Below the pieces are notes generated by a model. It was not told the DNA's origin, did not search any database, and was given only the letters and a program-made list of their open reading frames with translations. From the NCBI GenBank assembly GCA_032622095.1, contig CP136069.1, positions 6,248,976-6,312,975 of the forward strand: DNA of 64,000 nt, given 5' to 3'. Position numbers and translations under genes: made by a program. Below are positions 226 through 61,325 of the stretch, piece after piece; the stretch's first letter is position 1; the number at the start of each line of letters is the position of its first letter. The stretch comes from Siphonodentalium dalli. Its lineage: Eukaryota; Mollusca; Scaphopoda; Gadilida; Siphonodentaliidae.

Positions 226-688
226 CCATTTACCCAACAAAACGCCCAGAAAAATAGCCCAAAATGAAGCTGCAACAGCCTAAATTATCTTGGGCCTGTC
301 TCAATAGAACCTTACAAATATGGATATCATTGGAACCGGTTCATTGACCACATTGTGATAGTTACAGTTATGCCCTGTGCCAATGCATTCTCTTATATAT
401 GCGAGTCGACCATAGGTCGCCTCGCATATATATAAGAGAATGCATTGGCCTAAAAAAAATCATTTTTTAACACTTTTTACCATTTTTTCTTACATTCTTT
501 AACAATTTTATAATTTTTTCTTATATTTTTTAACAATTTTTATAATATTTTTCTACATTCTTTGACAATTTTATCATTTTTAATATGTGTTAAGCCAATT
601 GATTCTCTGATATATGCGAGGCGACCTATGGTCGACTCGCATATATAAGAGAATGCATTGGCACAGGGCCGTTTTGTTGGGTGAAGGA
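226..688 (+). mobile_element. HP1 foldback element, copy 1 (TTAA-bounded)
   Basis: The element lies between TTAA at 222-225 and TTAA at 689-692. Its ends are inverted (CCATTTACCCAACA and TGTTGGGTGAAGGAT), slightly diverged from the consensus CCCTTTACCCAACA. A left arm of about 140 bp leads to a module H hairpin (about 366-448). A T-rich spacer follows, then a second module H in opposite orientation (about 590-667). TTAA target duplications are typical of piggyBac-like transposons. No transposase is encoded, so it would be a non-autonomous MITE. The left hairpin has an extra TA in its stem. Confidence 0.8.
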
Positions 689-692
689 TTAA

Positions 693-1650
693 TCCAAATT
701 GTAGTAAATCGATTTATCGAATCATTATCACACATGATGATTAATAAATCGATTTATCGAAATTTATCACGATGATGGGTGTGCACTAAAGGAATTCGAA
801 GAACACACTAGATGTATATTGCCTTAAGTAGAAACTCATGGTCAAAGTTTTTAGTAACCGTACAAGTGCAAATTACTTTATATAATAGATCTAGGTCAAT
901 ACAACTGTCAATTATTTATAATTGGCTTCGTGCTCGTTATGATTAATCAAGAACTGGTCATGTGATCAGCCATCAGCCATGATGGTCAATTGGAGAATGT
1001 GTTAACATTTTTAAATCACTTAAATGAAAATGTTCTTCAATTTCTTCTGTATCTCGTAATAATTTTACATATAGATGCAGCGGGTATATATATCCTTCAT
1101 TTATAGCATCTACTGCACACCGGTGGTGTGACGTAGCAAACTATTAATAATATTAATATAATTAAGCGGAATGTAAGAAGTGTTATGTTACACAATTGAT
1201 GACAATGATCAACAATGCGGCAAGATTCATCGAGTGAAATACTTTATGTTATAACCGATACATGTTATACCGACGTGGTTGTTTGGAGCATATCAAATGG
1301 GCGTGAGATAAAAACAACACTCACCTCTCGTGATCAATCGTTATTTATCTTTGATACTCGTGATTGCTGGACGACCAGGTGACTCTCTCTCGAGCAAATT
1401 ACAATATCCTTCCGAAATCACAGTCATGCAAAAACATTCCAGTGTGCGGTTATGTCCCTTTCGCGCGCGGACGTCGTGGGTTTGTGCATCAACTTTTTAT
1501 TGGATAATTGATGTTGCTGTGTCCACCATTTTTTACGATTATTAATGAAAATAATGGAATAAATGCAAGAAAATTTTCTATTACCTTACAGAAACCATTT
1601 ATATCGTGCCTAATATAATCTATAATATATGGGGTACATTTGTTTGCGAC
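693..1650. other. No gene seen
   Basis: No coding signal. An exact 15-bp direct repeat (AAATCGATTTATCGA) occurs at 706-720 and 746-760. The short ORF at 1330-1545 has no family resemblance and no splice context. Confidence 0.6.
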
Positions 1651-1654
1651 TAAT

Positions 1655-1985
1655 TACGCTTAAGCGCAATCAATTGCACTTAAGCGCTATTAATTGTACT
1701 TAAGTCCAATTAATTGTACATAAGCAAAATTGAATTATGTTTGATCTTAATTAAATTGCGCTTGATCATAATTAAATTGCGCTTAATCGCAATGGAATTG
1801 CGCTTAATCACAATTGAATTATACTTAAGCGCAATTAAGTTTAATACATATGAAAACGGCCTCCCATAAGGATCGAGGTTTAGCCATATATGGACAGATA
1901 ATTCCGCTTCAGCTGAATAACATTTAAATTACGCTGAATCACATTGATTGCGCTGAAGCACAATTGCGCTTCACAATTTAACTGA
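1655..1985. repeat. Degenerate ~22-bp repeat with mixed polarity
   Basis: Repeated variants of GCGCTTAATCACAATTGAATT and its inverse CTTAAGCGCAATTAATTG occur about ten times. They are interrupted near 1850-1920 by unrelated sequence that contains GGCCTCCCAT, which recurs near 2013. The copies alternate in orientation, so the stretch can fold on itself. It is non-coding. Confidence 0.55.
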
Positions 1986-2231
1986 AGCGCAATTATTGAT
2001 ATATGTGAATTTGGCCTCCCATGTTTCAGATAATGACATTTTTTATATTGAGGCTACCAGCCCCTGCCCCCAAGTGCTCCTGGGACCCGAATCCGTCTTT
2101 AAAAAAGACATGAAATTCAGTTTATGAATTTAGGGCGTAATACGACATTTGAAAGGGTGGGTCGGTGGGGGTTGTAGCCTCATATATATAGGATATCCAT
2201 GTGTGTCACCCTGTCCAACATGGCTAGAGCT

Positions 2232-2400
2232 TCCTGAATTTTGCGAAAACCCTGTGCCAATGCATTCTCTTATATATGCGAGTCCCCCACAGGGAGACTC
2301 GCTTATATAAGAGAATGCGTTGGCCTAACAATATTTACCTTCACCTTGTAAGCCAGTGCATTTTCTTATATATGCGAGGTTCCCTATGGTAGAGATAATG
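2232..2400. mobile_element. HP4 foldback element, decayed copy
   Basis: The left end reads CTTCCTGAATTTTGCGAAAA and leads into a module H hairpin (about 2251-2328) whose loop is CCCCACAGGG-like instead of the usual GACCATAGGTC. A broken second half follows (GCATTTTCTTATATATGCGAG, about 2353-2390), and the right terminus is missing. The inverse of this left end closes the copy at 4.9-5.15 kb. Confidence 0.6.
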
Positions 2401-2950
2401 CACAGCCACATGATCTTCAATGTTTCACAAGCGCAGCGCCCGTCATGAAAGGACAAAGAGTGAATAATGATGCGAATTGGGAGTTTTTGCAAAGGGGGGT
2501 TATCAGATTGTTGTTTTGAACAGCACAGAATACGTAGATAACTAGATATATATGACACGTGTACCTTTCCCATTCACCTCATGGTGCGATCAATATTGCT
2601 GTGATGCCATATCTCATATGACGACTCTCTCATTACGCAATCCTCATTATAGACCACGCTGATTAGTTGGTTGTTTACGTTATTTTCTTCGAAACCGGAC
2701 CAGGCGTCGGAATTTTGATCGTAAACTTCCACCAATTAATCCTGTCGATACAGCGGGAGCTTGTATAATGTCGGGTATATAAAGCAGGTTTAATCGCATC
2801 TGGTGCACTATTTAGTCGGTGTGAGATATTCCCTATGAAGTTTGATTGGTATGTTTGCACCTCAATACCACGAACTGTGGAGGGCATTCGTACTAACGTC
2901 ATGTGTCGGAAACACATTGCGTTGCATTGTATGACACTCAATTTAACTCT
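2401..2950. other. No gene seen
   Basis: Nothing recognised. The short minus-strand ORFs here look like chance frames with no domain resemblance. Confidence 0.5.
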
Positions 2951-2951
2951 T

Positions 2952-3072
2952 GACACATAGAGAGCCCCACATAGACAACAGCAGACGACACTCCACAGTA
3001 CATGCTTCCATCTGGGTGAGGCTCCCTGTGGGTTAAACATTAATCTTTATATATCGCCTCGGTTATTAAGTT
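2952..3072. mobile_element. HP3 hairpin element, copy 1
   Basis: Imperfect hairpin with arms AGAGAGCCCCACATAG and GTGAGGCTCCCTGTGGG, an internal CAGACGACAC at 2982-2991, and a conserved tail TATATCGCCTCGGTTATTA. The same hairpin plus tail recurs at 14.8 kb and twice at 23.65-23.92 kb, and the hairpin alone recurs at 6.15 kb. Confidence 0.65.
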
Positions 3073-3930: not shown

Positions 3931-3932
3931 AA

Positions 3933-4311: not shown

Positions 4312-4895
4312 GACTCCATATGATATGCTCCATTTCAGTCTTCATAGATGCAGATTAACAATTTTATAGGTGGGGGTCACTCGGTCGTGTAATTTTGATA
4401 TTCTGTGTTATAAAATAGGTAAAACATGTAATTCTAAATTCTACTTCGCCTATCACCAAAAGCTTATGTTACTAGAAATTGATTTGTTTTAATTTAATAA
4501 CACACTGGAACAGCAAGTGTTACTATTTAAAAACACTAAGCTGTTCAGCAATTATGTGGTTGTGGCTACCCAGTGATCGTGAAATTCTCTCTATGAAATA
4601 AATATTTATTCGAACATACATGTAAGTGTTTATGCATATTGATGTGATCACGTGGTTCGTTATAAGCATTCTATGATTCTTGAGATGTTGCCAGCGACAA
4701 GTATTCATATTTATGTTGCCAGCGAAATGATCATATTGTTGACGTTAATCTGAATTTGACCTGGCTGGTCACGTGCCGAAGCATTATCCAATTTAATGCC
4801 TGCCATTGCGAATTTGTGACGTTACGTGATATTTTTGTGAACTCATGTTTGCGTACGACGGCTAACAAACTTGGATGATTGAGGTATTAGCCCTA
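4312..4895. other. No gene seen
   Basis: AT-rich sequence in which ATGTTGCCAGCGA occurs twice near 4685-4725. No coding or transposon signal was recognised. Confidence 0.5.
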
Positions 4896-4897
4896 AT

Positions 4898-5150
4898 GTT
4901 CATGACGGGAGCAGCATTAAATATCCTGTGCCAGTGCATCCTCTTATATACGCAAGTCTCTCATAGAGAGCCTTGCTTATATATGAGCATGTTTTGGCTT
5001 ACAAGGTCAATGTAAATATTGTTAGACCGATGTATTCTCTTATATATGCGAGGCTCTCTATGGGAGACTCGCATATATAAGAGAATTCATAGGCACAGGG
5101 TTTCGCAAAATTTCAGGAAGCTCCAGTCATGGAAGGGATAAATCTATCAC
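4898..5150. mobile_element. HP4 foldback element, copy 2
   Basis: Starts near TTCATGACGGGAGC and ends with TTTCGCAAAATTTCAGGAAG followed by CTCCAGTCATGGAAGGG. Two module H hairpins lie inside (about 4927-5010 and 5030-5100) in inverted orientation. Their loops differ from the HP1/HP2 type (TCTCATAGAGAG and CTCTCTATGGGAGA), so HP4 carries its own sub-lineage of the hairpin. Confidence 0.65.
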
Positions 5151-6149: not shown

Positions 6150-6214
6150 ACCATAGAGAGCCCCACATAGACAACAGCTTCCATCTGAGTGAGGCTCCCT
6201 GTGGGTTCATTTAC
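6150..6214. mobile_element. HP3 hairpin, short internally deleted copy
   Basis: AGAGAGCCCCACATAGACAA joins directly to CTTCCATCTGAGTGAGGCTCC. The middle with the CAGACGACAC box and the downstream tail are both absent. Confidence 0.6.
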
Positions 6215-6626: not shown

Positions 6627-7091
6627 TGTGACCCGCCATATCAAATCCAGTCGTAAGTCGGGATTTTTTACCCTGTGCCAATGCATTCTCTTATGTATGT
6701 GAGTCGACCATAGGTCGCCTCGCATATATAAGAGAATGCATTGGCCTAACAATGTTTTATCATTTTTTTTAAATAAATGTTTCTTACAATTTTTAGGACA
6801 TAAAATAAAAACACATCTATTACCCTGCAGGGAGCCCCACACATATATGTATATAGAAGCATATAGAAGAGTGTCGACTGCTCATGTTTGTCTGGGGCTC
6901 TGTGTGGGTGAAATTATAAAATTGTTAAAGAATACAAGAAAAAATTATTAAAATTGTAAAAAATTGTTAGGCCAATGCATTCTCTTATATATGCGAGGCG
7001 ACCTATGGTCGACTCGCATATATAAGAGAATACGTTGGCACAGGGTAAAAAAAATCCCGACTTACGACTGGATTTGATATGGCGGGTCACA
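6627..7091 (+). mobile_element. HP2 foldback element, copy 1
   Basis: Inverted termini TGTGACCCGCCATATCAAAT and its complement are flanked by TA on both sides (6625-6626 and 7092-7093). In order it holds a module H hairpin (about 6671-6746), a central HP3-type hairpin (GGGAGCCCCACA to TGGGGCTCTGTGTGGGT, about 6828-6910), and a second module H in inverse orientation (about 6970-7045). The TA flank suggests a Tc1/mariner-type or other TA-targeting transposase supplied in trans. No coding capacity is visible. Confidence 0.8.
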
Positions 7092-8474: not shown

Positions 8475-8747
8475 GAGTTGACCACATTGTGATAGTTACA
8501 GCTATGCCCTGTGCCAATGCATTCTCTGATATATGCGAGTCGACCATAGGTCGCATCGCATATATAAGAGAATGCATTGGCCTAAAAAAAAAAATTCTTA
8601 CATTTAAAAAAAAACAATTATAACATTTTTCTACATTCTTTGACAATTTTATCATTTTTAATATGTGTTAAGCCAACGCATTCTCTTATATATGCGAGGC
8701 GACCTATGGTCGACTCGCATATATAAGAGAATGCATTGGCACAGGGA
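8475..8747 (+). mobile_element. HP1 element, copy truncated at both ends
   Basis: Begins inside the HP1 left arm (GACCACATTGTGATAGTTAC). Both module H hairpins are retained (about 8505-8580 and 8672-8745). It stops at GGCACAGGG without the TTGGGTAAAGGG end, so both TTAA termini are lost. Confidence 0.75.
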
Positions 8748-9129: not shown

Positions 9130-9589
9130 TGTGACCCGCCGTATCAAATCCAGTCGTAAGTCGGGATTTTTTTTTACCCTGTGCCAATGCATTCTCTTAT
9201 ATATGCGAGTCGACCATATGTCGCCTCGCATATATAAGAGAATGCATTGGCCTAACAATTTTTTATCATGTTTTTTAAATAAATGTTTCTTACAATTTTT
9301 AGGACATAAAATAAAAAACACCCATTACCCTGCAGGGAGCCCCACACATATATAGAAGCATATAGAAGAGTGTCGTCTGCTCATGTTTGTCTGGGGCTCT
9401 GTATTGGTGAAATTATAAAATTGTTAAAGAATACAAGAACAAATTATTAAAATTGTAAAAAATTGTTAGGCCAATGCATTCTCTTATATATGCGAGGCGA
9501 CCTATGGTCGACTCGCATATATAAGAGAATGCATTGGCACAGGGTAAAAAAATCGCGACTTACGACTGGATTTGATATGGCGGGTCACA
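9130..9589 (+). mobile_element. HP2 foldback element, copy 2
   Basis: Same architecture as the copy at 6.6 kb: TGTGACCCGCC termini, outer module H hairpins (about 9178-9253 and 9468-9542), and a central HP3-type hairpin with GTGTCGTCTG at 9370-9379. It is flanked by AA on both sides instead of TA. ORFs of 71-74 codons are inverted-repeat shadows. Confidence 0.8.
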
Positions 9590-11640: not shown

Positions 11641-11848
11641 CCCTTTCAGTGCCAAGTCCGATTTTTTGTATCAACCCATATTTTCTTGATCATTTTTTCA
11701 AATTTATTGGTTATAATAATGTGATACATTGACGTAAGAGCTCTAAGAGCTCTTTCCATTAATGTATCACATTATTATAATCAATAAATTTTAAAAATGA
11801 TCAAGGAAATATGGGTTGATACAAAAATCGGACTTCGCACTGAAAGGG
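11641..11848. mobile_element. PB-C palindromic MITE, copy 1
   Basis: Bounded by TTAA at 11637-11640 and 11849-11852. Ends are CCCTTTCAGTGCCAAGTCCG and the near-complement CGGACTTCGCACTGAAAGGG. The element is a continuous palindrome centred on AGAGCTCTAAGAGCTCT. A second copy with the same termini lies at 49147-49353. Confidence 0.85.
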
Positions 11849-15624: not shown

Positions 15625-16087
15625 TGTGACCCGCCATGCATATCAAGTCCAGTCGTAAGTCGGGATTTGTTTTACCCTGTGCCAATGCATTCTCTTATAT
15701 ATGCGAGTCGACCATAGGTCGCCTCGCATATATAAGAGAATGCATTGGCCTAACAATTTTTTATCATGTTTTTTAAATAAATGTTTCTTACAATTTTTAG
15801 GACATAAAATAAAAAACATCCATTACCCTGCAGGGAGCCCCATACATATATAGAAGCATATAGAAGAGTGTCGTCTGCTCATGTTTGTCTGGGGCTCTGT
15901 ATGGGTGAAATTATAAAATTGTTAAAGAATACAAGAACAAATTATAAAAATTGTAAAAAATTGTTAGGCCAATGCATTCTCTTATATATGCGAGGCGACC
16001 TATGGTCGACTCGCATATATAAGAGAATGCATTGACACAGGGTAAAACAATCCCGACTTCCGACTGGATTTGATATGGCGGGTCACA
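15625..16087 (+). mobile_element. HP2 foldback element, copy 3
   Basis: TGTGACCCGCC termini with TA on both sides (15623-15624 and 16088-16089). Two outer module H hairpins (about 15682-15748 and 15968-16034) surround a central HP3-type hairpin with GTGTCGTCTG at 15869-15878. It is nearly identical to the copy at 9.1 kb. Confidence 0.8.
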
Positions 16088-17027: not shown

Positions 17028-17407
17028 CCCTTTACCCAACAAAACGGTCAACAACGCCCAAATAAAGCTTCAACAGCCTAAAATATCTTCGGTCTGTCTC
17101 AATAACACCATACAAATATGGATATCATTGGAACCGGTTCATTGACCACATTGTGATGGTTACAGTTATGCCCTGTGCCAATGCATTCTCTTATATATGC
17201 GAGTCGACCATAGGTCGCCTCGCATATATAAGAGAATGCATTGGCCTTATAACAATTTTTATAATATTTTTCTACATTCTTTGACAATTTTATCATTTTT
17301 AATATGTGTTAAGCCAATGCATTCTCTTATATATGCGAGGCGACCTATGGTCAACTCGCATATATAAGAGAATGCATTGGCACAGGGCCGTTCTGTTGGG
17401 TAAAGGG
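17028..17407 (+). mobile_element. HP1 foldback element, copy 2 (intact TTAA ends)
   Basis: TTAA at 17024-17027 and 17408-17411, ends CCCTTTACCCAACA and TGTTGGGTAAAGGG. The left arm contains AATAAAGCTTCAACAGCC. Module H hairpins lie at about 17178-17245 and 17315-17390. The spacer between them is shorter than in the copy at 0.2 kb. Confidence 0.85.
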
Positions 17408-18630: not shown

Positions 18631-19021
18631 CCCTTTACCCAACAAACCGGCCAAAACCGGCCAAATAAAGCTTCAACAGCCTAAAATATCTTCGGTCTGT
18701 CTCAATAGAACCATACAAATATGGGTATCATTGGAACCGTCTCCTTGACCACATTGTGATAGTTACAGTTATGCCCTGTGCCAATGCATTCTCTTATATA
18801 TGCGAGTCGACCATAGGTCGCCTCGCATATATAAGAGAATGCATTGGCCTAAAAAAAATCTTTTTTTAACACTTTTTACCATTTTTTCTTACATTCTTTA
18901 ACAATTTTATAATTTTAATGTGTTAAGCCAATGCATTCTCTTATATATGCGAGGCGACCTATGGTCGACTCGCATATATAAGAGAGTGCATTGGCACAGG
19001 GCCCTTCTGTTGGGTAAAGGG
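18631..19021 (+). mobile_element. HP1 foldback element, copy 3
   Basis: TTAA at 18627-18630 on the left. The right target copy has mutated to TTAG (19022-19025). Ends are CCCTTTACCCAACA and TGTTGGGTAAAGGG. The left arm shows GGCCAAAACCGGCCAAATAA, a small tandem duplication that also occurs in the copies at 43.6 and 48.4 kb. The two module H hairpins are at about 18782-18848 and 18930-18994. Confidence 0.85.
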
Positions 19022-20629: not shown

Positions 20630-22054
20630 ACTAAAGCATCATTGAAAAGTAGTTATCCCATAGGACATGTTCAGATAATAAGTTTAACCCTTTCTATACT
20701 AAAGTATCATTGACGAGTAGTTATCACATAGGAAATGTTCAGATAATAAGTTTAACCCATTCTATATTATAATAAGTTTAACCCTTTCTATACGAAAGTA
20801 TCATTGACGAGTAGTTATCCCATAGGAAATGTTCCGATAATAAGTTTAACCCATTCTATACTATAATAAGTTTAACCATACTAAAGTATCATTGACGAGT
20901 AGTTATCCCATAGGAAATGTTCCGATAATAAGTTTAACCCATTCTATACTATAATAAGTTTAACCCTTTCTATACTAAAGTATCATTGACGAGTAGTTAT
21001 CCCATAGGAAATGTTCAGATAATAAGTTTAACCCATTCTATATTATAATAAGTTGAACCCTTTCTATACGAAAGTATCATTGACGAGTAGTTATCCCATA
21101 GGAAAAATGTTCAGATAATAAGTTTAACCCATTCTATACTATACTAAGTTTAACCATACTAAAGTATCATTGACGAGTAGTTATCACATAGGAAATGTTC
21201 CGATAATAAGTTTAACCCATTCTATATTATAATAAGTTTAACCCTTTCTATATGAAAGTATCATTGACGAGTAGTTATCCCATAGGAAATGTTCAGATAA
21301 TAAGTTTAACCCATTCTATATTATAATAAGTTTAACCCTTTCTATACTAAAGTATCATTGACGAGTAGTTATCCCATAGGAAATGTTCAGATAATAAGTT
21401 TAACCCATTCTATATTATAATAAGTTTAACCCTTTCTATACTAAAGTATCATTGACGAGTAGTTATCCCATAGGAAATGTTCAGATAATAAGTTTAACCC
21501 ATTCTATATTATAATAAGTTTAAACCTTTCTATACTAAAGTATCATTGACGTAGTTATCACATAGGAAATGTTCAGATAATAAGTTTAACCCATTCTATA
21601 TTATAATAAGTTTAAACCTTTCTAAAGTAAAGTATCATTGACGAGTAGTTATCACATAGGAAATGTTCAGATAATAAGTTTAACCCATTCTATATTATAA
21701 TAAGTTTAAACCTTTCTATACTAAAGTATCATTGACGAGTAGTTATCCCATAGGAAATGTTCAGATAATAAGTTTAACCCATTCTATATTATAATAAGTT
21801 TAAACCTTTCTATACTAAAGTATCATTGACGAGTAGTTATCCCATAGGAAATGTTCAGATAATAAGTTTAACCCTTTCTATACTAAAGCATCATTGACGA
21901 GTAGTTATCACATAGGAAATGTTCAGATAATAAGTTTAACCCTTTCTACACTAAAGCATCATTGACGAGTAGTTATCACATAGGAAATGTTCAAATAATA
22001 AGTTTAACCCTTTCTATACTAAAGTATCATTGACGAGTAGTTATCCCATAGGAA
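20630..22054 (+). repeat. 68/94-bp satellite, orientation A
   Basis: Tandem units containing ATCATTGACGAGTAGTTATC and CATAGGAAATGTTCAGATAA. Most units carry an extra AACCCATTCTATATTATAA segment (about 94 bp in all). Units at both edges lack it (about 66-68 bp). This is the reverse complement of the satellite at 23.95-26.7 and 27.9-30.2 kb. Non-coding. Confidence 0.9.
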
Positions 22055-22109
22055 ATGTTCAGATAATAAGTTCAACATAGATAGTTTGATGAACTTATTT
22101 TCTAAACAT
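22055..22109. repeat. Palindrome at satellite polarity switch (left)
   Basis: ATGTTCAGATAATAAGTTCA pairs with TGAACTTATTTTCTAAACAT across a loop of about 15 bases. It sits exactly where the satellite changes from orientation A to the opposite orientation. Confidence 0.75.
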
Positions 22110-23649: not shown

Positions 23650-23925
23650 TAACCTGTTCATGAACCCTATAGAGAGCACCATGTATAGTGCAGCAGACGA
23701 CACTCCGTAGTGCATGCTTCCATCTGTGTGGGGCTCCCTATGGGTTAATCATTAAACTCTATAATATATCGCCTCGGTTATTATGTTTAACCATTTCATG
23801 AACCATAGAGAGCCCCATGTATTCTGCAACAGACGACACTCTGTAGTGCATGATTCCATCTGTGTGGGGCTCCCTGTGGGTTAATCGCTAAACTCTATAT
23901 ATCGCCTCGGTTATTATGTTTATCC
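23650..23925. mobile_element. HP3 hairpin elements, tandem pair
   Basis: Two adjacent ~135-bp copies, each with ATAGAGAGC arms, CAGACGACAC (23694-23703 and 23830-23839), TGTGGGGCTCCCTGTGGGTT, and the TATATCGCCTCGGTTATTA tail. The tandem pair suggests local duplication, not two separate insertions. Confidence 0.75.
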
Positions 23926-23953: not shown

Positions 23954-24022
23954 GAAATGTTCAGACAATAATTTCAACAAACATCCTATAGTCGTTTGTT
24001 GAACTTATTTTCTGAACATTTC
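23954..24022. repeat. Palindrome at satellite polarity switch (right)
   Basis: GAAATGTTCAGACAATAATT and TCAACAAAC pair almost perfectly with GTTTGTTGAACTTATTTTCT and GAACATTTC (about 29-bp arms, 11-base loop). It marks the left edge of the long 68-bp array and is built from the same GAAATGTTCAGA motif. Confidence 0.8.
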
Positions 24023-26715
24023 ACAAGGGAACACCTCATCAATGGGTATTTAGTATAGAAAGGGTTTAACTTATTATCTGAACATTTCCTATGGGATAAC
24101 TACTCATCAATGATGCTTTAGTATTGAAATGATTAAACTTATTATCTGAACATTTCCTATGGGATAACTATTCATCAATGATGGTTCAGTATAGAAAGGG
24201 TTTAACTTATTATCTGAACATTTCCTATGTGATAACTACTCATCAATGATGCTTTAGTATTGAAATGATTAAACTTATTATCTGAACATTTCCTATGTGA
24301 TAACTACTCGTCAATGATGCTTTATTATTGAAAGGATTATACTTATTATCTGAACATTTCTCATGAGATAACTACTCATCAATGAGGCTTTAGTATAGAA
24401 AGGGTTAAACTTATTATCTGAACATTTCCTGTGGGATAACTACTCATCAATGATGCTTTAGTATAGAAAGGGTTAAATTTATTATCTGAACATTTCCTAT
24501 GGGATAACTACTCATCAATGATGCTTTAGTATTGAAATGATTAAACTTATTATCTGAACATTTCCTATGGGATAACTACTCATCAATGATGGTTCAGTAT
24601 AGAAAGGGTTTAACTTATTATCTAAACATTTCCTATGGGATAACTACTCATCAATGATGGTTCAGTATAGAAAGGGTTAAACTTATCTGAACATTTCTCA
24701 TGAGATAACTACTCATCAATGATGCTTTAGTATAGAAAGGGTTAAACTTATTATCTGAACATTTCCTATGTGATAACTACTCATCAATGATGCTTTAGTA
24801 TTGAAAGGATTAAACTTATTATCTGAACATTTCCTACGTGATAACTACTCATCAATGATGCTTTAGTATAGAAAGGATTAAACTTATTATCTGAACATTT
24901 CCTACGTGATAACTACTCATCAATGATGCTTTAGTATTGAAATGATTAAACTTATTATCTGAACATTTCCTATGTGATAACTACTCATCAATGATGCTTT
25001 AGTATTGAAAGGATTAAACTTATTATCTGAACATTTCCTATGGGATAACTACTCATCAATGATGGTTCAGTATAGAAAGGGTTTAACTTATTATCTGAAC
25101 ATTTCCTATGGGATAACTACTCATCAATGATGGTTCAGTATAGAAAGGGTTAAACTTATCTGAACATTTCTCATGAGATAACTACTCATCAATGAGACTT
25201 TAGTATAGAAAGGGTTAAACTTATTATCTGAACATTTCCTGTGGGATAACTATTCATCAGTGATGCTTTAGTATAGAAATGGTTAGACTTATTATCTGAA
25301 CATCTCCTATGGGATAACTACTCATTAATGATGCTTTAGTATAGAAAGGATTAAACTTATTATCTGAACATTTCCTACGTGATAACTACTCATCAATGAT
25401 GCTTTAGTATAGAACGGATTAAACTTATTATCTGAACATTTCCTACGTGATAACTACTCATCAATGATGCTTTAGTATTGAAATGATTAAACTTATTATC
25501 TGAACATTTCCTATGTGATAACTACTCATCAATGATGCTTTAGTATTGAAAGGATTAAACTTATTATCTGAACATTTCCTATGGGATAACTACTCATCAA
25601 TGATGGTTCAGTATAGAAAGGGTTAAACTTATTATCTGAACAGTTCCTATGGGATAACTACTCATCAATGATGCTTTAGTATAGAAATGGTTAAATTTAT
25701 TATCTGAACATTTCCTATGGGATAACTATTCATCAGTGATGCGTTAGTATAGAAAGGGTTAGACTTATTATCTGAACATCTCCTATGGGATAACTACTTA
25801 TCAATGATGCTTTAGTATAGAAAGGGTTAAATTTATTATCTGAACATTTCCTATGGGATAACTACTCGTCGATGATGCTTTAGTATAGAAAGGGTTAAAC
25901 TTATTATCTGAACATTTCCTATGGGACAACTACTCATCAATGATGCTATAGTCTAGAAAGGGTTAAACCTATTATCTGAACATCTCCTATGGGATAACTA
26001 ATTAACAATGACTCTTTAGTATAGAAAGGGTTAAACTTATTATCTGAATATTTCCTATGGGATAACTATTCATCAATGATGCTATAGAATAGAAAGCGTT
26101 AAACGTATTATCTGAACATTTCCTATGGCATAACTACTCATCAATGATGCTTTAGTATAGAAAGGGTTAAATTTATTATCTGATCATTTCCTATGGGATA
26201 ACTATTCATCAATGATGCTTTAGTATAGTAAGGGTTAGACTTAATATCTGAACATTTCCTATGTGATAACTACTCACCAATGAGGCTTTAGTATATAAAT
26301 GGTTAAACTTATCTGAACATTTCTTATGAGATAACTACTCATCAATGATGCTTTAGTATAGAAAGGGTTAAACTTATTATGTGAACATTTCCTATGGGAT
26401 AACTACTCATCAATGATGCTTTAGTATAGAAATGGTTAATCTTATTATCTGAACAGTTCCTACGGGATAACTACTCATCAATGATGCTTTAGTGTAGAAA
26501 GGGTTAAACTTAGTATCTGAACAGTTCCTATGGGATAACTACTCATCAATGATGCTTTGGTATAGAAGGTGTTAAACTTGTTATCTGAAAATTTCCTATA
26601 GGGTAACTAATCATCAATGATTCTTCAGTATAGAAGGTTCTAAACTTATTATCTGAACATATCCTAATTGGTAACTACTCATCAATGGGTATTTAGCATA
26701 CAAAAGGGTTAAACT
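24023..26715 (-). repeat. 68-bp satellite, main array (~40 copies)
   Basis: Unit AACTTATTATCTGAACATTT, then CCTATGGGATAACTACTCAT, CAATGATGCTTTAGTATAGA and AAGGGTTA. Variants such as TACGTGATAAC and TGAGATAAC, and GATGGTTCAG versus GATGCTTTAG, recur in blocks. For example, a block of several units near 24.76-25.15 kb resembles one near 25.33-25.62 kb, indicating higher-order duplication. Non-coding. Confidence 0.92.
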
Positions 26716-30207: not shown

Positions 30208-30590
30208 ATTTTTTACCCTGTGCCAATGCATTCTCTTATATATGCGAGTCGACCATAGGTCGCCTCGCATATATAAGAGAATGCATTGGCCTAACAATTT
30301 TTTACAATTTTAATAATTTATTCTTTTATTCTTTAACAATTTTATAATTTTACCCATACAGAGCCCAGACAAACATGAGCAGACGACACTCTTCTATCTG
30401 CTTCTATATATGTGTGGGGCTCCCTGCAGGGTAATGGATGTTTTTTATTTTATGTCCTAAAAATTGTAAGAAACATTTATATTTAAAAAATGATAAAAAA
30501 TCGTTAGGCCAATGCATTCTCTTATATATGCGAGGCGACCTATGGTCGACTCGCATATATAAGAGAATGCATTGGCACAGGGTAAAACAA
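30208..30590 (-). mobile_element. HP2-type core lacking the outer termini
   Basis: Runs from TTTACCCTGTGCCAATGC to GGCACAGGGTAAAACAA with two module H hairpins (about 30223-30291 and 30513-30580) and a central HP3-type hairpin with CAGACGACAC at 30380-30389. The TGTGACCCGCC ends are absent, so it is either truncated or a distinct shorter form. It is inverted relative to the other HP2 copies. Confidence 0.75.
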
Positions 30591-34807: not shown

Positions 34808-35267
34808 TGTGACCCGCCATATCAAATCCAGTCGGAAGTCGGGATTTTTTTACCCTGTGCCAATGCATTCTCTTATATATGCGAGTCGACCATAGGTCGC
34901 CTCGCATATATAAGAGAATGCATTGGCCTAACAATTTTTTATCATGTTTTTTAAATAAATGTTTCTTACAATTTTTAGGACATAAAATAAAAAAAAACAT
35001 CCATTACCCTCCAGGGAGCCCCACATATATATAGAAGCATATAGAAGAGTGTCGTCTGCTCATGTTTGTCTGGGGCTCTGTATGGGTGAAGTTATAAAAT
35101 TGTTAAAGAATACAAGAAAAAATTATTAAAATTGTAAAAAAGTGTTAAGCCATGCATTCTCTTATATATGCGAGGCGACCTATGGTCGACTCGCATATAT
35201 AAGAGAATGCATTGGCACAGGGTAAAACAATCCCGACTTCCGACTGGATTTGATATGGCGGGTCACA
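34808..35267 (+). mobile_element. HP2 foldback element, copy 4
   Basis: TGTGACCCGCC termini. Left flank TA (34806-34807) and right flank TG, possibly a mutated TA. Module H hairpins lie at about 34860-34926 and 35152-35218, and the central HP3-type hairpin has GTGTCGTCTG at 35050-35059. The second module H has lost one base of GCCAATGCATT. Confidence 0.8.
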
Positions 35268-43179: not shown

Positions 43180-43626
43180 CCCAACCGTTACCACAAGCTG
43201 TTGTGGACCGAGAAGATTTGGTCTGAGCAGAAACTCATAAAGTCAAGTCCCTTCTGATCAATCAACTATTTATTTTAACTAATATATTAATTTATTTTTG
43301 TGGTATAACGCTGGTCGTTAACATGTTTTTATCGCCTATGAAACCACGCTTAATGTGATTACAGATACGCCCCTCGTTTTTAAATTACTAGAACGACTGT
43401 TGTATAAATATAAAAAAACATGTATTATCGCGTTCGTAAGTTGACCGTATTTCTATATACAATGCAATTCGGGTATATACTTCAGTTTCACGCACAGCTG
43501 CTTTATATTTCGTTGCACACATGAATTTACATTTATCATCATATTATGAGTTTGTAAATAGATCCAAATTGTTTGTCTTCTGTTATGATATACATGTTCC
43601 CATATAGGTGGCATTTAACATGTTAA

Positions 43627-44007
43627 CCCTTTACCCAACAGAAGGGCCCTGTGCCAATGCATTCTCTTATATATGCGAGTCGACCATAGGTCGCCTCGCA
43701 TATATAAGAGAATGCATTGGCTTAACACATTAAAAATTATAAAATTGTTAAAGAATGTAAGAAAAAATGTTTAAAAAGATTTTTTTTAGGCCAATGCATT
43801 CTCTTATATATGCGAGGCGACCTATAGTCGACTCGCATATATAAGAGAATGCATTGGCACAGGGCATAACTGTAACTATCACAATGTGGTCAAGGAGCCG
43901 GTTCCAATGATATCCATATTTGTATGGTTCTATTGAGACAGACCGAAGATATTTTAGGCTGTTGAAGCTTTATTTGGCCGGTTTTGGCCGGTTTGTTGGG
44001 TAAAGGG
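43627..44007 (-). mobile_element. HP1 foldback element, copy 4 (intact TTAA ends)
   Basis: TTAA at 43623-43626 and 44008-44011. Reverse orientation: the short end CCCAACAGAAGGGCCCTGTG comes first and the long arm with GGCTGTTGAAGCTTTATTTG last. Module H hairpins at about 43653-43721 and 43793-43860. The 59 bp to its left are duplicated at 48.34 kb. Confidence 0.85.
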
Positions 44008-44011
44008 TTAA

Positions 44012-48229: not shown

Positions 48230-48233
48230 TTAA

Positions 48234-48338
48234 CCCTTTACCCAACAGAAGAGCCCTGTGCCAATGCATTCTCTTATATATGCGAGTCGACCATAGGTCG
48301 CCTCGCATATATAAGAGAATGCATATATAAGAGAATGC
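48234..48338 (-). mobile_element. HP1 fragment (left end plus one module H)
   Basis: TTAA at 48230-48233, then CCCTTTACCCAACAGAAGAG and one hairpin (about 48260-48340) with a partial duplication (GCATATATAAGAGAAT twice). It is cut at 48338, where a copy of sequence from 43.57 kb begins. Confidence 0.75.
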
Positions 48339-48397
48339 ATTGTTTGTCTTCTGTTATGATATACATGTTCCCATATAGGTGGCATTTAACATGTTAA
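48339..48397 (+). repeat. 59-bp copy of the 43.57-kb HP1 flank
   Basis: Identical to 43568-43626: TTGTTTGTCTTCTGTTATGA, TATACATGTTCCCATATAGG and the rest up to TTAA. The flank is not part of the HP1 element, so this records a copying event between the two loci. Confidence 0.85.
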
Positions 48398-48788
48398 CCC
48401 TTTACCCAACAGAAGGGCCCTGTGCCAATGCATTCTCTTATATATGCGAGTCGACCATAGGTCGCCTCGCATATATAAGAGAATGCATTGGCTTAACACA
48501 TTACAAATTATAAAATTGTTAAAGAATGTAAGAACAAATGGTAAAAGGTGTTAAAAAAAGATTTGTTTAGGCCAATGCATTCTCTTATATATGCGAGGCG
48601 ACCTATTGTCGACTCGCATATATAAGAGAATGCATTGGCACAGGGCATAACTGTAACTATCACAATGTGGTCAAGGAGCCGGTTCCAATGATATCCATAT
48701 TTGTATGGTTCTATTGAGACAGACCGAAGATATTTTAGGCTGTTGAAGCTTTATTTGGCCGGTTCTGGCCGGTTTGTTGGGTAAAGGG
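48397..48788 (-). mobile_element. HP1 foldback element, copy 5 (intact TTAA ends)
   Basis: TTAA at 48393-48396 and 48789-48792. Close to the copy at 43.6 kb in orientation and sequence, with the GGCCGGTTCTGGCCGG duplication in the long arm. Module H hairpins lie at about 48426-48494 and 48570-48640, and the loop of the second reads CTATTGTC. Confidence 0.85.
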
Positions 48789-48819
48789 TTAAAAACTCAA
48801 TATAAAATGAAAACATAAC

Positions 48820-49054: not shown

Positions 49055-49492
49055 AACAACATTATTTTGGCTCACCAACATCACCGCAATTTAGCAGGAT
49101 CTGCCAATACCATAGAACAAACTAGCACGAACCATCAACACCTTAACCCTTTCAGTGCCAAGTCCGATTTTTGTATCAACCCATATTTCCTTGATCATTT
49201 TTCAAATTTATTGATTATAATAATGTGATACATTGATGGAAAGAGCTCTTAGAGCTCTTTCCATCAATGTATCACATTATTGTAATCAATAAATTTGAAA
49301 AATGATCAAGGAAATATGGGTTGATAAAAAAATCGGACATGGTACTGAAAGGGTTAATTATTGAGCAGAACCCACCATCATCAAAGAATAAATTAGCACG
49401 AACCATAAACATCTTAGTTATTGAGCAGGACCAACCAACATAATAGAACAAAGTAGCACGAACCACCAACATCATAGTAACTTAGCAGGACC
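49055..49492 (+). repeat. ~62-bp degenerate tandem repeat, interrupted by a MITE
   Basis: About four units with TTTAGCAGGA / TTGAGCAGGACC, CAACATAATAGAACAAA and TAGCACGAACCACCAACAT. The PB-C element lies inside the first-to-second unit junction. The repeat resumes on the other side. Confidence 0.75.
49147..49353. mobile_element. PB-C palindromic MITE, copy 2
   Basis: TTAA at 49143-49146 and 49354-49357. Ends CCCTTTCAGTGCCAAGTCCG and CATGGTACTGAAAGGG. Palindrome centred on GAGCTCTTAGAGCTC. The outermost right arm has a few substitutions relative to the copy at 11.6 kb. Confidence 0.85.
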
Positions 49493-49800: not shown

Positions 49801-52800
49801 CTATAACAGTACTCCGCCTTGCGACAGTGACCGCCTTATAACAGTACTCCGCCTTGTAACAGTACTCCGCCTTGTAACAGTACTCCGCTTTGTAATAGTA
49901 CTCCGTCTTGTAACAGTACTCCGCCTTGTAACAGTACTCCGCCTTGTAACAGTACTCCACCTTGTAATAGTACTCCGTCTTGTAACAGTACTCCGTCTTG
50001 TAACAGTACCCCGCCTTGTAACAGTACTCCGTCTTGTAACAGTACTTCGTCTTGTAACAGTACTCCGCCTTGTAACAGTACCCCGCCTTGTAACAGTACT
50101 CCGCATTGTAACAGTACTCCGCCTTGTAACAGTACTCCGCCCTGTAATATTACTCCGCCTTGTAACAGTACTCCGCCTTGTAACAGTACTCCGCCTTGTA
50201 ACAGTACTCCGTCTTGTAACAGTACTCCGTCTTGTAACAGTACTCCGCCTTGTAACAGTACTCCGCCTAATAACAGTACTCCACCTTGTAACAGTACTCC
50301 GCCTTGTAACAGTACTCCGCCTTGTCACAGTACTCCGCCTTGTAACAGTACTCCGCCTTGTAACAGTACTCCGCCTTGTAACAGTACTCCGCCTTGTAAC
50401 AGTACTCCGCCTTGTAACAGTACTCCGCCTTGTAACAGTAATCCGCCTTGTAACAGTACTCCGCCTTGTAACAGTACTCCGCCTTGTAACAGTACTCCGC
50501 CTTGTAACAGTACTCCGCCTTGTAACAGAACGCCGCCATCTAATAGTACTCCGCCTTGGAACAGTACACTGCCTTGTAACAGTACTCCGCCTTTGAACAG
50601 TACTCCGCCATGTAATAGTATGCCGCCTTGTAGCAGTACTCCGTCTTGTAACAGTACTCCGCCTTGTAACAGTACTCCGTCTTGTAACAGTACGCCGCCT
50701 TGTAACAGTACTCCGGAATACTCCGCCTTGTAACAGTACTCCGCATTATAACAGTAATCCACCTTGTAACAGTACTCCGCAGTACTCCGCAGTGTAACAG
50801 TACTCCGCATTGTAACAGTACTCCGCCTTGTAACAGTACTCCGGAATACTCCGCCTTGTAACAGTACTCCGCATTATAACAGTAATCCACCTTGTAACAG
50901 TACTCCGCAGTACTCCGCAGTGTAACAGTACTCCGCATTGTAACAGTACTCCGCCTTGTAACAGTACTCCGCCGTGTAACAGTACTCCGCATTATAACAG
51001 TAATCCACCTTGTAACAGTACTCCGCAGTACTCCGCAGTGTAACAGTACTCCGCATTGTAACAGTACTCCGCCTTTTAACAGTACTCCGCCTTGTAACAG
51101 TACTCCGCATTGTAACAGTATGCTGCCTTGTAACAGTACTCCTCCTTGTAACAGTACTCCGCCTTGTAATAGTACTCCGCCTTGTAACAGTACTCCGCCT
51201 TGTAATAGTACTCCGCCTTGTAACAGTACTCCGTCTTGTAACAGTACTCCGCCTTGTAACAGTACTCCGCCTTGTAACAGTACTCTGCCTTGTAATAGTA
51301 TGCCACCTTGGAACAGTATGCGGCCTTGTAATAGTACGCCACCTTGTAACAGTAATCCGCCTTGTAACAGTACTCCGCCTTGTAACAGTACTCCGCCTTG
51401 TAACAGTACTCCGCCTTGTAACAGTACTCCGCCTTGGAACAGTAATCCGCCTTGTAACAGTACGCCGCCATCTAATAGTACTCCGCCTTGGAACAGTACA
51501 CTGCCTTGTAACAGTACTCCGCCTTTGAACAGTACTCCGCCATGTTATAGTATGCCACCTTGGAACAGTACTCCGCCTTGTAACAGTACTCTGCCTTGTA
51601 ACAGTACTCTGCCTTGTAATAGTATGCCACCTTGGAACAGTATGCCGCCTTGTAATAGTACGCCGCCTTGTAACAGTACGCCGCCTTGTAACAGTAATCC
51701 GCCTTGTAACAGTACTCCGCCTTGTAACAGTACTCCGCCTTGTAACAGTACTCCGCCTTGTAACAGTACTTCGCCTTGGAACAGTACTCCGCCTTGTAAC
51801 AGTACGCCGCCATCTAATAGTACTCCGCCTTGGAACAGTACACTGCCTTGTAACAGTACTCCGCCTTTGAACAGTACTCCGCCATGTAATAGTATGCCAC
51901 CTTGGAACAGTACTCCGCCTTGTAACAGTACTCTGCCTTGTAACAGTACTCTGCCTTGTAATAGTATGCCACCTTGGAACAGTATGCCGCCTTGTAATAG
52001 TACGCCGCCTTGGAACAGTATGCCGTCTTGTAACAGTACTCCGCCTTGTAACAGTACTCCGCATTGTAACAGTAATCCGCATTGTAACAGTACCCCGCCT
52101 TGTAACAGTACTCCGTCTTGTAACAGTACTCCGCCTTGTAACAGTAATCCGCTTTGTAACAGTACTCCACATTGTAACAGTACTCCGCCTTGTAACAGTA
52201 CTCTGCATTGTAAGTGTTCTCCGCCTTGTAACAGTATTCCGCATTGTAACAGTACTCCGCATTGTAACAGTACTCCGCATTGTAATAGTACTATGCCTTG
52301 CAACAGTACGCTGTCTTGCAACAGTACTCCGCATTGTAACAGTATTCTGCCTTGTAATAGTATGCCACCTTGGAACAGTATGCCGCCTTGTAATAGTACT
52401 ACGCCTTGCAACAGTATGCTGTCTTGTAATAGTATGCCACCTTGGAACAGTATGCCGCATTGTAATAGTACCCCGCCTTGTAACAGTACTCCGCATTTTA
52501 ACAGTACTCCGCCTTGTAACAGTACTCCGCATTGTAACAGTACTTCGTCTTGTAATAGTACTCCGCCTTGTAACAGTACTCCGCCTTGTAATATTACTCC
52601 GCCTTGTAACAGTACTCCGCCTTGTAACAATACTCCGCCTTGTAACAGTACTCCGTCTTGTAACAGTACTCCGTCTTGTAACAGTACTCCGCCTTGTAAC
52701 AGTACTCCGCCTAATAACAGTACTCCGCCTTGTAACAGTACTCCGCCTTGTAACAGTACTCCGCCTTGTCACAGTACTCCGCCTTGTAACAGTACTCCGC

Positions 52801-54757
52801 CTTGTAACAGTACTCCGCCTTGTAACAGTACTCCGCCTTGTAACAGCACTCCGCCTTGTAACAGTAATCCGCCTTGTAACAGTACTCCGCCTTGTAACAG
52901 TACTCCGCCTTGTAACAGTACTCCGCCTTGTAACAGTACTCCGCCTTGGAACAGTACTCCGCCTTGTAACAGTACGCCGCCTTGGAACAGTACACTGCCT
53001 TGTAACAGTACTCCGCCTTTGAACAGTACTCCGCCTTTGAACAGTACTCCGCCATATAATAGTATGCCGCCTTGTAGCAGTACTCCGTCTTGTAACAGTA
53101 CTCCGCCTTGTAACAGTACTCCGTCTTGTAACAGTACGCCGCCTTGTAACAGTACTCCGGAATACTCCGCCTTGTAACAGTACTCCGCATTATAACAGTA
53201 ATCCACCTTGTAACAGTACTCCGCAGTACTCCGCAGTGTAACAGTACTCCGCATTGTAACAGTACTCCGCCTTGTAACAGTACTCCGGAATACTCCGCCT
53301 TGTAACAGTACTCCGCATTATAACAGTAATCCACCTTGTAACAGTACTCCGCAGTACTCCGCAGTGTAACAGTACTCCGCATTGTAACAGTACTCCGCCT
53401 TGTAACAGTACTCCGCCTTGTAACAGTACTCCGCATTATAACAGTAATCCACCTTGTAACAGTACTCCGCAGTACTCCGCAGTGTAACAGTACTCCGCAT
53501 TGTAACAGTACTCCGCCTTGTAACAGTACTCCGCCTTGTAACAGTACTCCGCATTGTAACAGTATGCTGCCTTGTAACAGTACTCCTCCTTGTAACAGTA
53601 CTCCGCCTTGTAATAGTACTCCGCCTTGTAACAGTACTCCGCCTTGTAATAGTACTCCGCCTTGTAACAGTACTCCGCCTTGTAACAGTACTCCGCCTTG
53701 TAACAGTACTCCGCCTTGTAACAGTACTCTGCCTTGTAACAGTACTCTGCCTTGTAATAGTATGCCACCTTGGAACAGTATGCCGCCTTGTAATAGTACG
53801 CCGCCTTGGAACAGTATGCCGTCTTGTAACAGTACTCCGCCTTGTAACAGTACTCCGCATTGTAACAGTAATCCGCATTGTAACAGTACCCCGCCTTGTA
53901 ACAGTACTCCGTCTTGTAACAGTACTCCGCCTTGTAACAGTAATCCGCTTTGTAACAGTACTCCACATTGTAACAGTACTCCGCCTTGTAACAGTACTCC
54001 GCCTTGTAACAGTACTCTGCATTGTAAGTGTTCTCCGCATTGTAACAGTACTCCGCATTGTAACAGTACTCCGCATTGTAATAGTACTACGCCTTGCAAC
54101 AGTACGCTGTCTTGCAACAGTACTCCGCATTGTAACAGTATTCTGCCTTGTAATAGTATGCCACCTTGGAACAGTATGCCGCCTTGTAATAGTACTACGC
54201 CTTGCAACAGTATGCTGTCTTGTAATAGTATGCCACCTTGGAACAGTATGCCGCATTGTAATAGTACTCCGCATTGTAACAGTATTCTGCCTTGTAATAG
54301 TATGCCACCTTGGAACAGTATGCCGCCTTGTAATAGTACTCCGCATTGTAACAGTATTCTGCCTTGTAATAGTATGCCACCTTGGAACAGTATGCCGCCT
54401 TGTAATAGTACTACGCCTTGCAACAGTACGCTGTCTTGTAATAGTATGCCACCTTGGAACAGTATGCCGCATTGTAATAGTACTCCGCATTGTAACAGTA
54501 TTCTGCCTTGTAATAGTATGCCACCTTGGAACAGTATGCCGCCTTGTAATAGTACTCCGCATTGTAACAGTATTCTGCCTTGTAATAGTATGCCACCTTG
54601 GAACAGTATGCCGCATTGTAATAGTACTACGCCTTGCAACAGTACGCTGTCTTGTAATAGTATGCCACCTTGGAACAGTATGCCGCATTGTAATAGTACT
54701 CCGCATTGTAACAGTATTCTGCCTTGTAATAGTATGCCACCTTGGAACAGTATGCCG
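49801..54757 (+). repeat. 18-bp minisatellite, ~5 kb (~275 copies)
   Basis: Unit AGTACTCCGCCTTGTAAC. Five of six frames of the consensus lack a stop codon, so ORFs of 400-685 codons on both strands are a property of the unit and not evidence of a gene. Irregular blocks with TACTCCGGAATACTCCG and CGCAGTACTCCGCAGTG occur at about 50.70-51.06 and 53.15-53.48 kb. The array contains nested duplications: about 2.44 kb (51.12 and 53.56 kb), 342 bp (51471 and 51813) and 216 bp (54195, 54411, 54627). Confidence 0.95.
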
Positions 54758-58703: not shown

Positions 58704-58762
58704 TATCGTAACCCACAAACGTCAAAGTCCACCATTATCGTAACCCACAAACGTCAAAGTAA
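58704..58762 (+). repeat. 29-bp tandem duplication
   Basis: ATTATCGTAACCCACAAACG followed by TCAAAGT, twice. Confidence 0.85.
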
Positions 58763-59250: not shown

Positions 59251-59507
59251 TATCGTCGCTGATCTTTAATATTTTTGACCGCAACAAAAAGTTGAATCGA
59301 CACAACTACAGCCCTCATTGTTTTGCAGGTATAGAAGCATAAAAGGTAAAAATGGAGTTATATGGTGTCAAACGGGGCGTCTATAACATTCATATGTTGC
59401 TTTCAGAAGTGTGGAATTTCATATCGTTGCAGTCAGTAAAACTATGTTGAAGTAATTGACATCTTATAGAGGTCGTTGCCCTGCAGTTTACTGCACAAAA
59501 TGTTCTT

Positions 59508-59725
59508 TGTAACCACGTGAAATCACATGGCAACATCACATATTCCTAGTAACCACATGTTTTGCCTTGCAATCAAGTGTTATTTCATAGTAACCACATG
59601 TTCTTGCCTAGCAATCAAGTGCTATTGCATAGCAACCATATTTTCGTGCCTAGAAACCACGTGTTCTTACATAGTAACCACGTGTTCTTACGTAGTAACC
59701 ACGTGTTCTTGCCTGGTAACTGCAA
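59508..59725 (+). repeat. ~21/42-bp degenerate minisatellite
   Basis: About nine 21-bp units of the form TAGTAACCACATGTTCTTGCC, alternating with TAGCAATCAAGTGCTATTGCA. The ORFs on it (59527-59754 and 59562-59771) are repeat-driven. Confidence 0.8.
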
Positions 59726-60418
59726 TATTACGGAAGGTATGTTTTATTATATGAATTATGTATTGTGTTAATATGTATGCCGGCATTAAATATACACATT
59801 TGCAATATTGATAGAGCATGCACAATTTGATGTCTTTCTCTTTCTAAATAGTTTTTATTTGTAGTGCTTTTACCTCTCTATTAATATATTTGCCTTGCTG
59901 TATGTTTTATATATTTTCATTCTATAACATGCCTCAATTTCAGGAAGAGGATACTACTGTTTTATATCAGATGAGATTAACGCATGTCCATCGCCGCTTT
60001 AGATTGTCAACATTGTTTCAGGTGTTCCCGATTGAAAGCAACTATAAAGTATATCCAATGTGTGACATGTTACCGTCATATATTTAGTTAAAATATAACA
60101 ATTGTTCTACTAAATCAGTTCCATGGCGTGGTTAATGGTTGTGTTTCTCTAAAGTGTAAACGTCACCTGCATGATTAGTGAATTTACGTTGAATAGTTAA
60201 AGTGACTATTTCCAAATTCCAATATTCCAAATTTTAATTTGCTGTTGTATTTGCCAATTAGGATAATTCTAAACTATTGGCATATTTCTTTGAGGTAGAG
60301 TTTCGGTTGTTTTTCATCTGCCACTCTCTAAACACATAACGTGTTCTTCTTAACTATGTTTAGATTCCAAATAGTGTTTCGTTGATATGAAATCGACCAC
60401 AAAATATATCTGTACCTT
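59726..60418. other. No gene seen
   Basis: Nothing recognised. Confidence 0.5.
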
Positions 60419-60422
60419 TTAA

Positions 60423-60862
60423 CCCTTTACCCAATAAAACGGCAAAAAACGCCCAAATAAAGCTTCAACAGCCTAAAATATCTTCGGTCTGTCTCAAAAA
60501 CACCATACAAATATGGATATCATTGGAACCGGTACATTGACCACATTGTGATGGTTACAGTTATGCCCTGTGCCAGTGCATTCTCTTATATATGCGAGTC
60601 GACCATAGGTCGCCTCGCATATATAAGAGAATGCATTGGCATTTTACCATTTTTTCTTACATTCTTTAACAATTTTATAATTTTTTCTTACAGTTTTTAA
60701 CAATTTTTATAATATTTTTCTACATTCTTTGACAATTTTATCATTTTTAATATGTGTTAAGCCAATGCATTCTCTTATATATGCGAGGCGACCTATGGTC
60801 GACTCGCATATATAAGAGAATGCATTGGCACAGGGCCGTTCTGTTGGGTAAAGGCCAAAGGG
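60423..60862 (+). mobile_element. HP1 foldback element, copy 6
   Basis: TTAA at 60419-60422 and 60863-60866. Left end CCCTTTACCCAATAAAACGG. The right end TGTTGGGTAAAGG carries a short duplication (AAGGCCAAAGG) before TTAA. Module H hairpins lie at about 60572-60640 and 60763-60830. Confidence 0.82.
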
Positions 60863-60942
60863 TTAAAAGATAAATGAGCGTATGCATTGTCGTGGTGCTC
60901 GTGTTTGTCGCAACTAACCACGGGACATTTTTCCTGATAAAT

Positions 60943-61127
60943 GGGATCTGTACCCTAAATCCGGCCATTTATGGGACCATCTCCTTTTATACTCAACAGA
61001 ATATATGCAACAACTGAATGAATTTGAGCCATGGGGTAGTGCAAAATACACTCCTTTGCACTATGAACGATACAAACAACATGGTAATTATAGCGAAAAT
61101 GAATCTGGAGTTGGCCGGATTTATGGT
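60943..61127 (+). mobile_element. PB-B half copy
   Basis: AAATCCGGCCATTTATGGGA, GCAACAACTGAATGAATTTG and ACATGGTAATTATAGCGAAA match one arm of the 11.3-kb PB-B element. It closes with GAGTTGGCCGGATTTATGG, so a short foldback remains. No TTAA ends. Confidence 0.65.
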
Positions 61128-61185
61128 GTTTCGGGATTTTTTTTACATGTTCACAAAATGGGATTTGTTTGACCGAGGTTGTGTA

Positions 61186-61325
61186 CAGGCTCAGCTCCCG
61201 TCATTGGTCTTGTCAGCCTTCTCTTATATATCCGAGGCTCCATATGGGAGCATATATAAGAGAATACAATGGCACATGATAGTTAATGCCGCAATGCAGT
61301 TCCCGTCATGAGCACCGGGGTTAAA
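61186..61325. mobile_element. Diverged HP4-like foldback with one hairpin
   Basis: CTCCCGTCATTGG on the left and CAGTTCCCGTCATGAGC on the right flank a single module H hairpin (TTCTCTTATATATCCGAGGC to GAGCATATATAAGAGAA, about 61221-61272). Confidence 0.5.

Follow-up and report, generated by a model that had tools for sequence, protein, structure and literature searches.

Miniature inverted-repeat transposable elements (MITEs) of the piggyBac/TTAA type have CC[C/T]T ends and usually a separate interior for each family of ends (PMC2872659). In Acropora corals, Wang and co-workers described the CMITEs, TTAA MITE families with differing CCCTT-type ends and an interior better conserved than these ends. 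In that paper, 75 interior bases are common to the families, a new element arose through insertion into an internal TTAA, piggyBac-like transposons are proposed to cross-mobilise the families, and the copy number is put at about 1,600 for an assumed genome size of 200 Mb (PMC2872659). Here we analysed a window of 64,000 nucleotides (the whole stretch, GenBank assembly GCA_032622095.1, contig CP136069.1, positions 6,248,976 to 6,312,975) of the scaphopod mollusc Siphonodentalium dalli, in which a cassette of paired hairpins lies inside transposon-like elements with unlike ends. The host genome carries tens of thousands of such non-autonomous elements, which fall into four families with different ends, designated A, B, C and D, and have one hairpin cassette in common.

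The likeness to the CMITEs lies in an interior common to families with different ends and in insertion at an inner TTAA. All CMITE families described there use TTAA, whereas here the non-TTAA family D also takes part and the common portion is a paired 69-bp hairpin. The approximately 1,600 CMITEs compare with 123,984 exact core ends here, tens of times as many in total but, in a roughly tenfold larger genome (2,227 Mb), only a few times as many per Mb. A 60-mer of the CMITE interior compared with the window and the sampled loci gave no match of weight (best E value 0.054). With piggyBac/TTAA MITEs in general, as outlined in the same source, the elements have in common the TTAA, the CC[C/T]T ends, short length and lack of coding sequence, but here four families have one interior. 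An earlier note on this DNA had called a folded cassette shared across transposase systems no standard MITE pattern; this was right, although TTAA MITEs offer a close published precedent (PMC2872659). Within the literature searched, the interior common to TTAA and non-TTAA families is new, as is the mosaic trail described below, in which both hairpin-free parents, X and Y, of a mosaic family are still in the genome. As X, Y and the mosaic family C all survive, the transfer of an interior between families can be traced in sequence. This makes the locus a traceable case of small transposons trading ends and insides, which has been a weak point in accounts of how MITE families originate.

We consider it probable that the cassette was handed from the old family A to the younger families by nesting and was then locked in and multiplied, without independent movement. 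It would be an internal part of non-autonomous DNA transposons, oldest in A (TTAA target, CCCTT ends), of which a late branch with a changed apex and spacer units of approximately 31 bp would have given it, once or a few times each, to B and C (likewise TTAA target and CCCTT ends) and to D (GTGACCC ends, non-TTAA target). In the passing step, one element would insert at a TTAA within another and a transposase would then pair the unlike outer ends. Each family would subsequently have amplified with the cassette locked in place, mobilised in trans, in A to C presumably by piggyBac-like transposases.

Anatomy of the hairpin cassette

The 21-base hairpin arm GCATTCTCTTATATATGCGAG matched the window 59 times at up to three mismatches, against 0 matches in each of 100 dinucleotide shuffles. 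The genome-wide search that the earlier note had proposed for the hairpin, made here with this arm, found 150,852 exact copies on the forward and 150,679 on the reverse strand of the 2,226,750,531 bases in 9 contigs (2.23 Gb), 301,531 altogether; the arm read backwards, used as control, gave 0. A script counted 29 complete hairpins in the window, in line with the approximately 30 copies, mostly inverted pairs, reported previously. Each is a 69-bp palindrome (GCCAAT...ATTGGC) in which 27+5 bases pair and ATA forms the apex, slightly shorter than the 75 bp first given. The common hairpin sequence has a predicted RNA energy of -54.3 kcal/mol, and an Rfam scan of the window gave 0 matches at gathering scores.

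Most window hairpins are paired in a core, which consists of two inverted hairpins and an AT-rich spacer, starts with CCCTGTGCC and ends with GGCACAGGG. The same start bounds the core in all four families, and the 33-base core end has 123,984 exact copies in the genome. The spacer enlarges in units of approximately 31 bases (CATTCTTTAACAATTTTATAATTTTTTCTTA), as seen at positions 461-581 and 60641-60748 of the window and in the relative L032. DINE-1-type elements also contain inner repeat units of variable number; the elements described here are alike in this respect but are bounded by inverted ends and short duplications of the target. Inside the D spacer, at window positions 6820-6910 and 9325-9415, lies another small element of hairpin-like form (GGGAGCCCCACA...GGGGCTC), a relative of which stands solo at approximately 2955-3035, 6150-6210, 23670-23745 and 23800-23885.

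Families, ends and target sites

Relatives were collected outside the window from 20 fixed, evenly spaced 10-kb places, which are not random draws (L009-L028, 200 kb in total), and by exact arm from the places listed first on one contig (L029-L048). In the 200 kb, 4,489 bases (2.2%) spread over 7 of the 20 places resemble cassette-bearing query elements. Among the 89 rows of the core-end table are a few inner edges of hairpins (e.g. L031:626, L014:1386 and window 30502); this table, like the target-flank table, omits 5 overlapping loci. Grouping of these rows by outside sequence yielded the four families, with a few ends fitting none. Family A (HP4 in the earlier note) has CCCTTCCATGACTGGAGCTTCCTGAAATTTTGCGAAAA on one side of the core and CCCTTTCATGACGGGAGCTGCGCTGGTGCAGCATTAAAGA on the other. 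Family B (HP1) has the terminus CCCTTTACCCAACA, a left arm of approximately 145 bp and a right arm of approximately 20 bp. Family C (CCCTTTGAGTGCCAGG) has one hairpin and was seen among the relatives, with none in the window. In family D (HP2; GTGACCCGCC, ends GTGACCC) the arms are symmetric around the core. By eye, 15 of the 29 window hairpins belong to B, 8 to D and 4 to A, and 2 lie in a D-type core that lacks D arms (30216-30582).

The elements of the window are listed below; the hairpin alignment that gave core bounds and element coordinates, like the apex and fold comparison, omits 9 loci.

226 to 688, forward strand: B (HP1) element with two hairpins, TTAA on both sides
8478 to 8746, forward strand: truncated B, 29 bp of left arm plus core, without B termini
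17028 to 17407, forward strand: B element, TTAA on both sides
18631 to 19021, forward strand: B element, TTAA at left and TTAG at right
43627 to 44007, reverse strand: B element in opposite orientation, TTAA on both sides
48231 to 48792, reverse strand: composite B between TTAA sites
60423 to 60855, forward strand: B element, right end slightly rearranged
6628 to 7090: D (HP2) element, flanking repeat ATAT
9131 to 9588: D element, flanking repeat AAAT
15626 to 16086: D element, flanking repeat ATAT
34809 to 35266: D element, flanks ATAT and ATGT matching over 2 bp only
30216 to 30582: D-type core, D arms absent on both sides
2226 to 2453, forward strand: A (HP4) element, degenerate, two hairpin regions
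4895 to 5137, reverse strand: A element, core at 4924-5100, left terminus decayed, right end GAAGGG followed by ATAA
14933 to 15165, reverse strand: A element, degenerate, TTAA at right only
61180 to 61312: decayed A-type copy with one hairpin
11641 to 11848: hairpin-free X, TTAA on both sides, end resembling the left end of family C
49147 to 49353: hairpin-free X, TTAA on both sides, first 40 bp with a 95% match to C

The three distinct termini claimed previously were recovered: CCCTTTACCCAACA of HP1 matched the window 13 times at up to two mismatches, TGTGACCCGCC of HP2 8 times at up to one and CTTCCTGAAATTTTGCG of HP4 2 times at up to three mismatches. As 2 of 100 shuffles also reached the HP4 count, this family rests on relatives found outside the terminus search.

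The termini of A, B and C fit CC[C/T]T (CCCTTTACC, CCCTTTGAG and CCCTTCCATG / CCCTTTCATG). Among paired rows, TTAA stands on both sides in 14 of 16 B elements, as the earlier note had it for HP1, in 7 of 8 C elements with a hairpin and in all 6 hairpin-free X and Y elements. For A, 13 of 21 ends have TTAA by eye (1 of 5 within the window), and one of three paired copies has it on both sides (L027:2092-2345), the others being decayed. None of the 7 complete D elements is flanked by TTAA on both sides. With GTGACC taken as the end, 5 of them have a 4-bp AWAT repeat, one a 2-bp AT repeat and one none; TA on both sides, outside TGTGACCC, fits 4 of 7 by eye, and AT-rich targets blur the distinction of 2 from 4 bp. 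The D target is thus best read as a 4-bp AWAT duplication, and the TA previously assigned to HP2 was not shown as a target. The target-flank table contains near-duplicates (L001/L006, L034/L035 and L039/L044), and two of its B rows have one right end in common. Judged by ends and flanks, HP1 and HP4 form one target class with TTAA, CCCTT ends and a putative piggyBac-type mechanism, of which C is a third family. With TTAA in A, B and C but in 0 of 7 D elements, at least two target classes exist, TTAA and AWAT-like, instead of the three that had been supposed.

A mosaic family and its hairpin-free relatives

Two hairpin-free TTAA elements, X (window 11641-11848 and 49147-49353) and Y (L034:56-341 and L039:195-467), account for the outer parts of family C. 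In the C copy L041, bases 1-40 match X at 95%, bases 42-134 match the D core at 94.6% and bases 202-468 match Y at 87.6%. By eye, the join reads TTCTTTA-G-CTCTTTCAG: after the TTCTTTAACA site of the spacer comes sequence resembling the end of Y itself. In L043, TTCTTTAA gives way to Y at approximately the 13th base of the latter. This anatomy of L041 and L043 is most simply explained if Y inserted at a TTAA of a core within an X-type element. Family C would then most simply be one element that took its left end from X, its other end from the far side of Y and half a core in between, with the order of these events as proposed here.

A comparable arrangement is present at 48231-48792 of the window, where a composite joins a one-hairpin B end to a complete B element (48398-48788) through 55 bp that match the sequence to the left of the 43.6-kb copy; positions 43568-44011 match 48339-48792 at 96%. 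Both this composite and the C mosaic are most simply read as distant ends that came to be used together, and the same route may have served B and D. Apart from this, C-type cassettes occur on contig C1 (G000) at approximately 820-921 kb at mostly 11.17-kb steps, a spacing that indicates an array of large repeats carrying them.

If all families instead came from a single ancestor whose termini diverged or were trimmed while the interior was kept, the TTAA and CCCTT common to A, B and C and the related spacers would be in its favour. Such descent is nevertheless very unlikely, as the left end of C matches the hairpin-free X and its right part the hairpin-free Y, and D has different ends and a different target. 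The case that the earlier note had named as contrary to its view, one ancestor from which all termini derive by simple deletion, was not found: the X arm, which is the left arm of C, continues without a core in 9,007 exact places.

A further explanation is that the cassette was gained or homogenised by template switching or gene conversion during gap repair rather than by nested insertion. The hairpin arms are alike across families, and the apex types are separated by two double changes at paired positions, a pattern expected from copying across a palindrome. The join in C lies, however, at a TTAA-like site beside text like the end of Y, as insertion predicts, and we regard the repair route as rather unlikely.

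Junctions of the cassette

If the cassette moved alone, the base at its junction would be expected to vary unless the target were fixed. The base preceding CCCTGTGCC is A or G in 99.2% of exact core ends and C or T in 1,043 of 123,984 (0.84%), so that the cassette is not shown to move alone. Eight of the loci preceded by a pyrimidine were inspected, and six proved to be altered copies of A, B or D and two cut D-type copies. L049 and L051 are assigned by their left arm to A, L050 and L053 to B, and L054 and L055 to D (L054 without right arm); L052, truncated on both outer sides, is placed in D by its right arm. L056 is D-type by its spacer only, with a left flank unlike known arms and the right part broken off. 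No target duplication around the core was seen by eye in these eight loci.

The B left junction is present in 34,170 exact copies, and the B left arm is followed by a base other than C in 454 places. Of 8 such places inspected, 7 differ at that base, in L059 along with other changes, and the eighth, L060, shows a deletion. Exact D junctions number 19,118, while exact D arms stand face to face within 24 bases in 2 places, one of which holds text like the D core spacer; exact C junctions number 12,598. Since B and D arms are almost never without a core, both families apparently multiplied after gaining the cassette.

These observations bear on the idea of the core as a transposon in its own right, with CCCTGTGCC ends, that jumped separately into the middles of A, B, C and D. 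In keeping with it, its boundary is identical in the four families, D arms are symmetric about it, some D-type cores lack arms (L012, window 30216), the left flank of L056 resembles no known arm, and a fixed one-base target would escape the test of the preceding base. The constancy of that base, the assignment of all eight pyrimidine-preceded loci to A, B or D types, the failure to find a target duplication by eye, and B and D arms that almost never lack a core speak against it. Empty hosts were not seen for B and D either, nor was an empty site for arm-less or odd copies when their flanks were compared with the sampled loci. We therefore judge a mobile core quite unlikely. The earlier alternative of a hairpin either captured repeatedly or itself mobile is thereby narrowed: repeated capture is supported by the apex and the mosaic C, and independent mobility is not supported, the junctions being fixed.

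Age, apex and spacer

The direction in which the cassette passed was considered from mismatches in the outer arms, with a table that keeps array duplicates and files 18 rows under 'other', part of these chance matches. Mean values in the window are 2.2 for A, 0.14 for B and 0.38 for D. The 200-kb sample gave 3.73 for A, 3.4 for B (0, 0, 1, 1 and 15), 0 for C (n=1) and 0 for D (n=3), and the C1 set, chosen for exact arms, 1.88 for A, 3.15 for B, 0.3 for C and 0 for D. A is thus older than C and D in each set, older than B in the window, and older than B elsewhere if deleted copies are excluded.

The hairpin apex reads TCTCCCATAGGGAGC in A and TCGACCATAGGTCGC in the others; two neighbouring pairs differ on both sides (TA to GC and CG to AT). 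Among 104 hairpins, 14 of them without family, the GA/TC apex is found in 48 of 49 B, 9 of 9 C and 18 of 18 D, whereas A has TC/GA in 11 of 14, GA/TC in 2 (L032 and L064) and an ambiguous apex in one. L032 combines an A end with the GA/TC apex and a spacer of approximately 31-base units. In spacer comparisons, none of 500 shuffles reached the score of L032 with B, C or D, of B with D or of C with D, and 1 of 500 reached that of C with B. The new apex and spacer units of L032, together with these scores, suggest that a late branch of A is the likely donor of the cassette to B, C and D.

Candidate transposases and conflicting observations

The genome contains at least 128 matches to PF13843 (piggyBac-type), 12 genes giving two each, and 14 control genomes gave 0. 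Many of the matches lie within open frames near 600 codons and form near-identical sets, which makes a supply of transposase in this genome likely. A search for PF14830 (mollusc haemocyanin) gave 0 matches in this genome and 0 in the control genomes, and is therefore uninformative about the host. Of 377 copies of a B-end variant, 100 were compared by eye with the listed piggyBac matches, and none was closer than 5 kb to any of these; the 1-kb flank of one transposase was without an end of A, B, C or D type. The cassette could also be thought of as a portable amplifier, whose folded DNA or RNA boosts the spread of any holder, whichever transposase acts. If so, three families, served by two or more transposase systems, would owe their bursts to one cassette; we hold this to be improbable, and passing by nesting would need no role of the hairpin.

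Several points weigh against passing by nesting from A. The events by which B and D acquired the cassette were not seen, and the join in L041 is TTTAG rather than TTAA. The D-type cores without arms (L012:6946-7305 and window 30216-30582) would suit a mobile core. The three junction counts leave approximately 58,000 exact core ends unassigned, which may stem from right ends of B, from A ends and from altered junctions. The mismatch ages are uneven, with B (3.15) above A (1.88) in the C1 set, where four deleted copies (7 to 13) raise the B value, and the link to a late A depends on two copies only. Neither the B-end listing nor the one flank showed a transposase-encoding element with ends of A, B, C or D, and Kolobok elements also target TTAA.

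Other repeats of the window

Tandem arrays occupy further parts of the window. Approximately 279 copies of an 18-base unit make up positions 49804-54752, and arrays of 68-94-base units at 20675-22076, 23998-26715 and 27937-30152 contain related text around TATTATCTGAACATTTCC on opposite strands.

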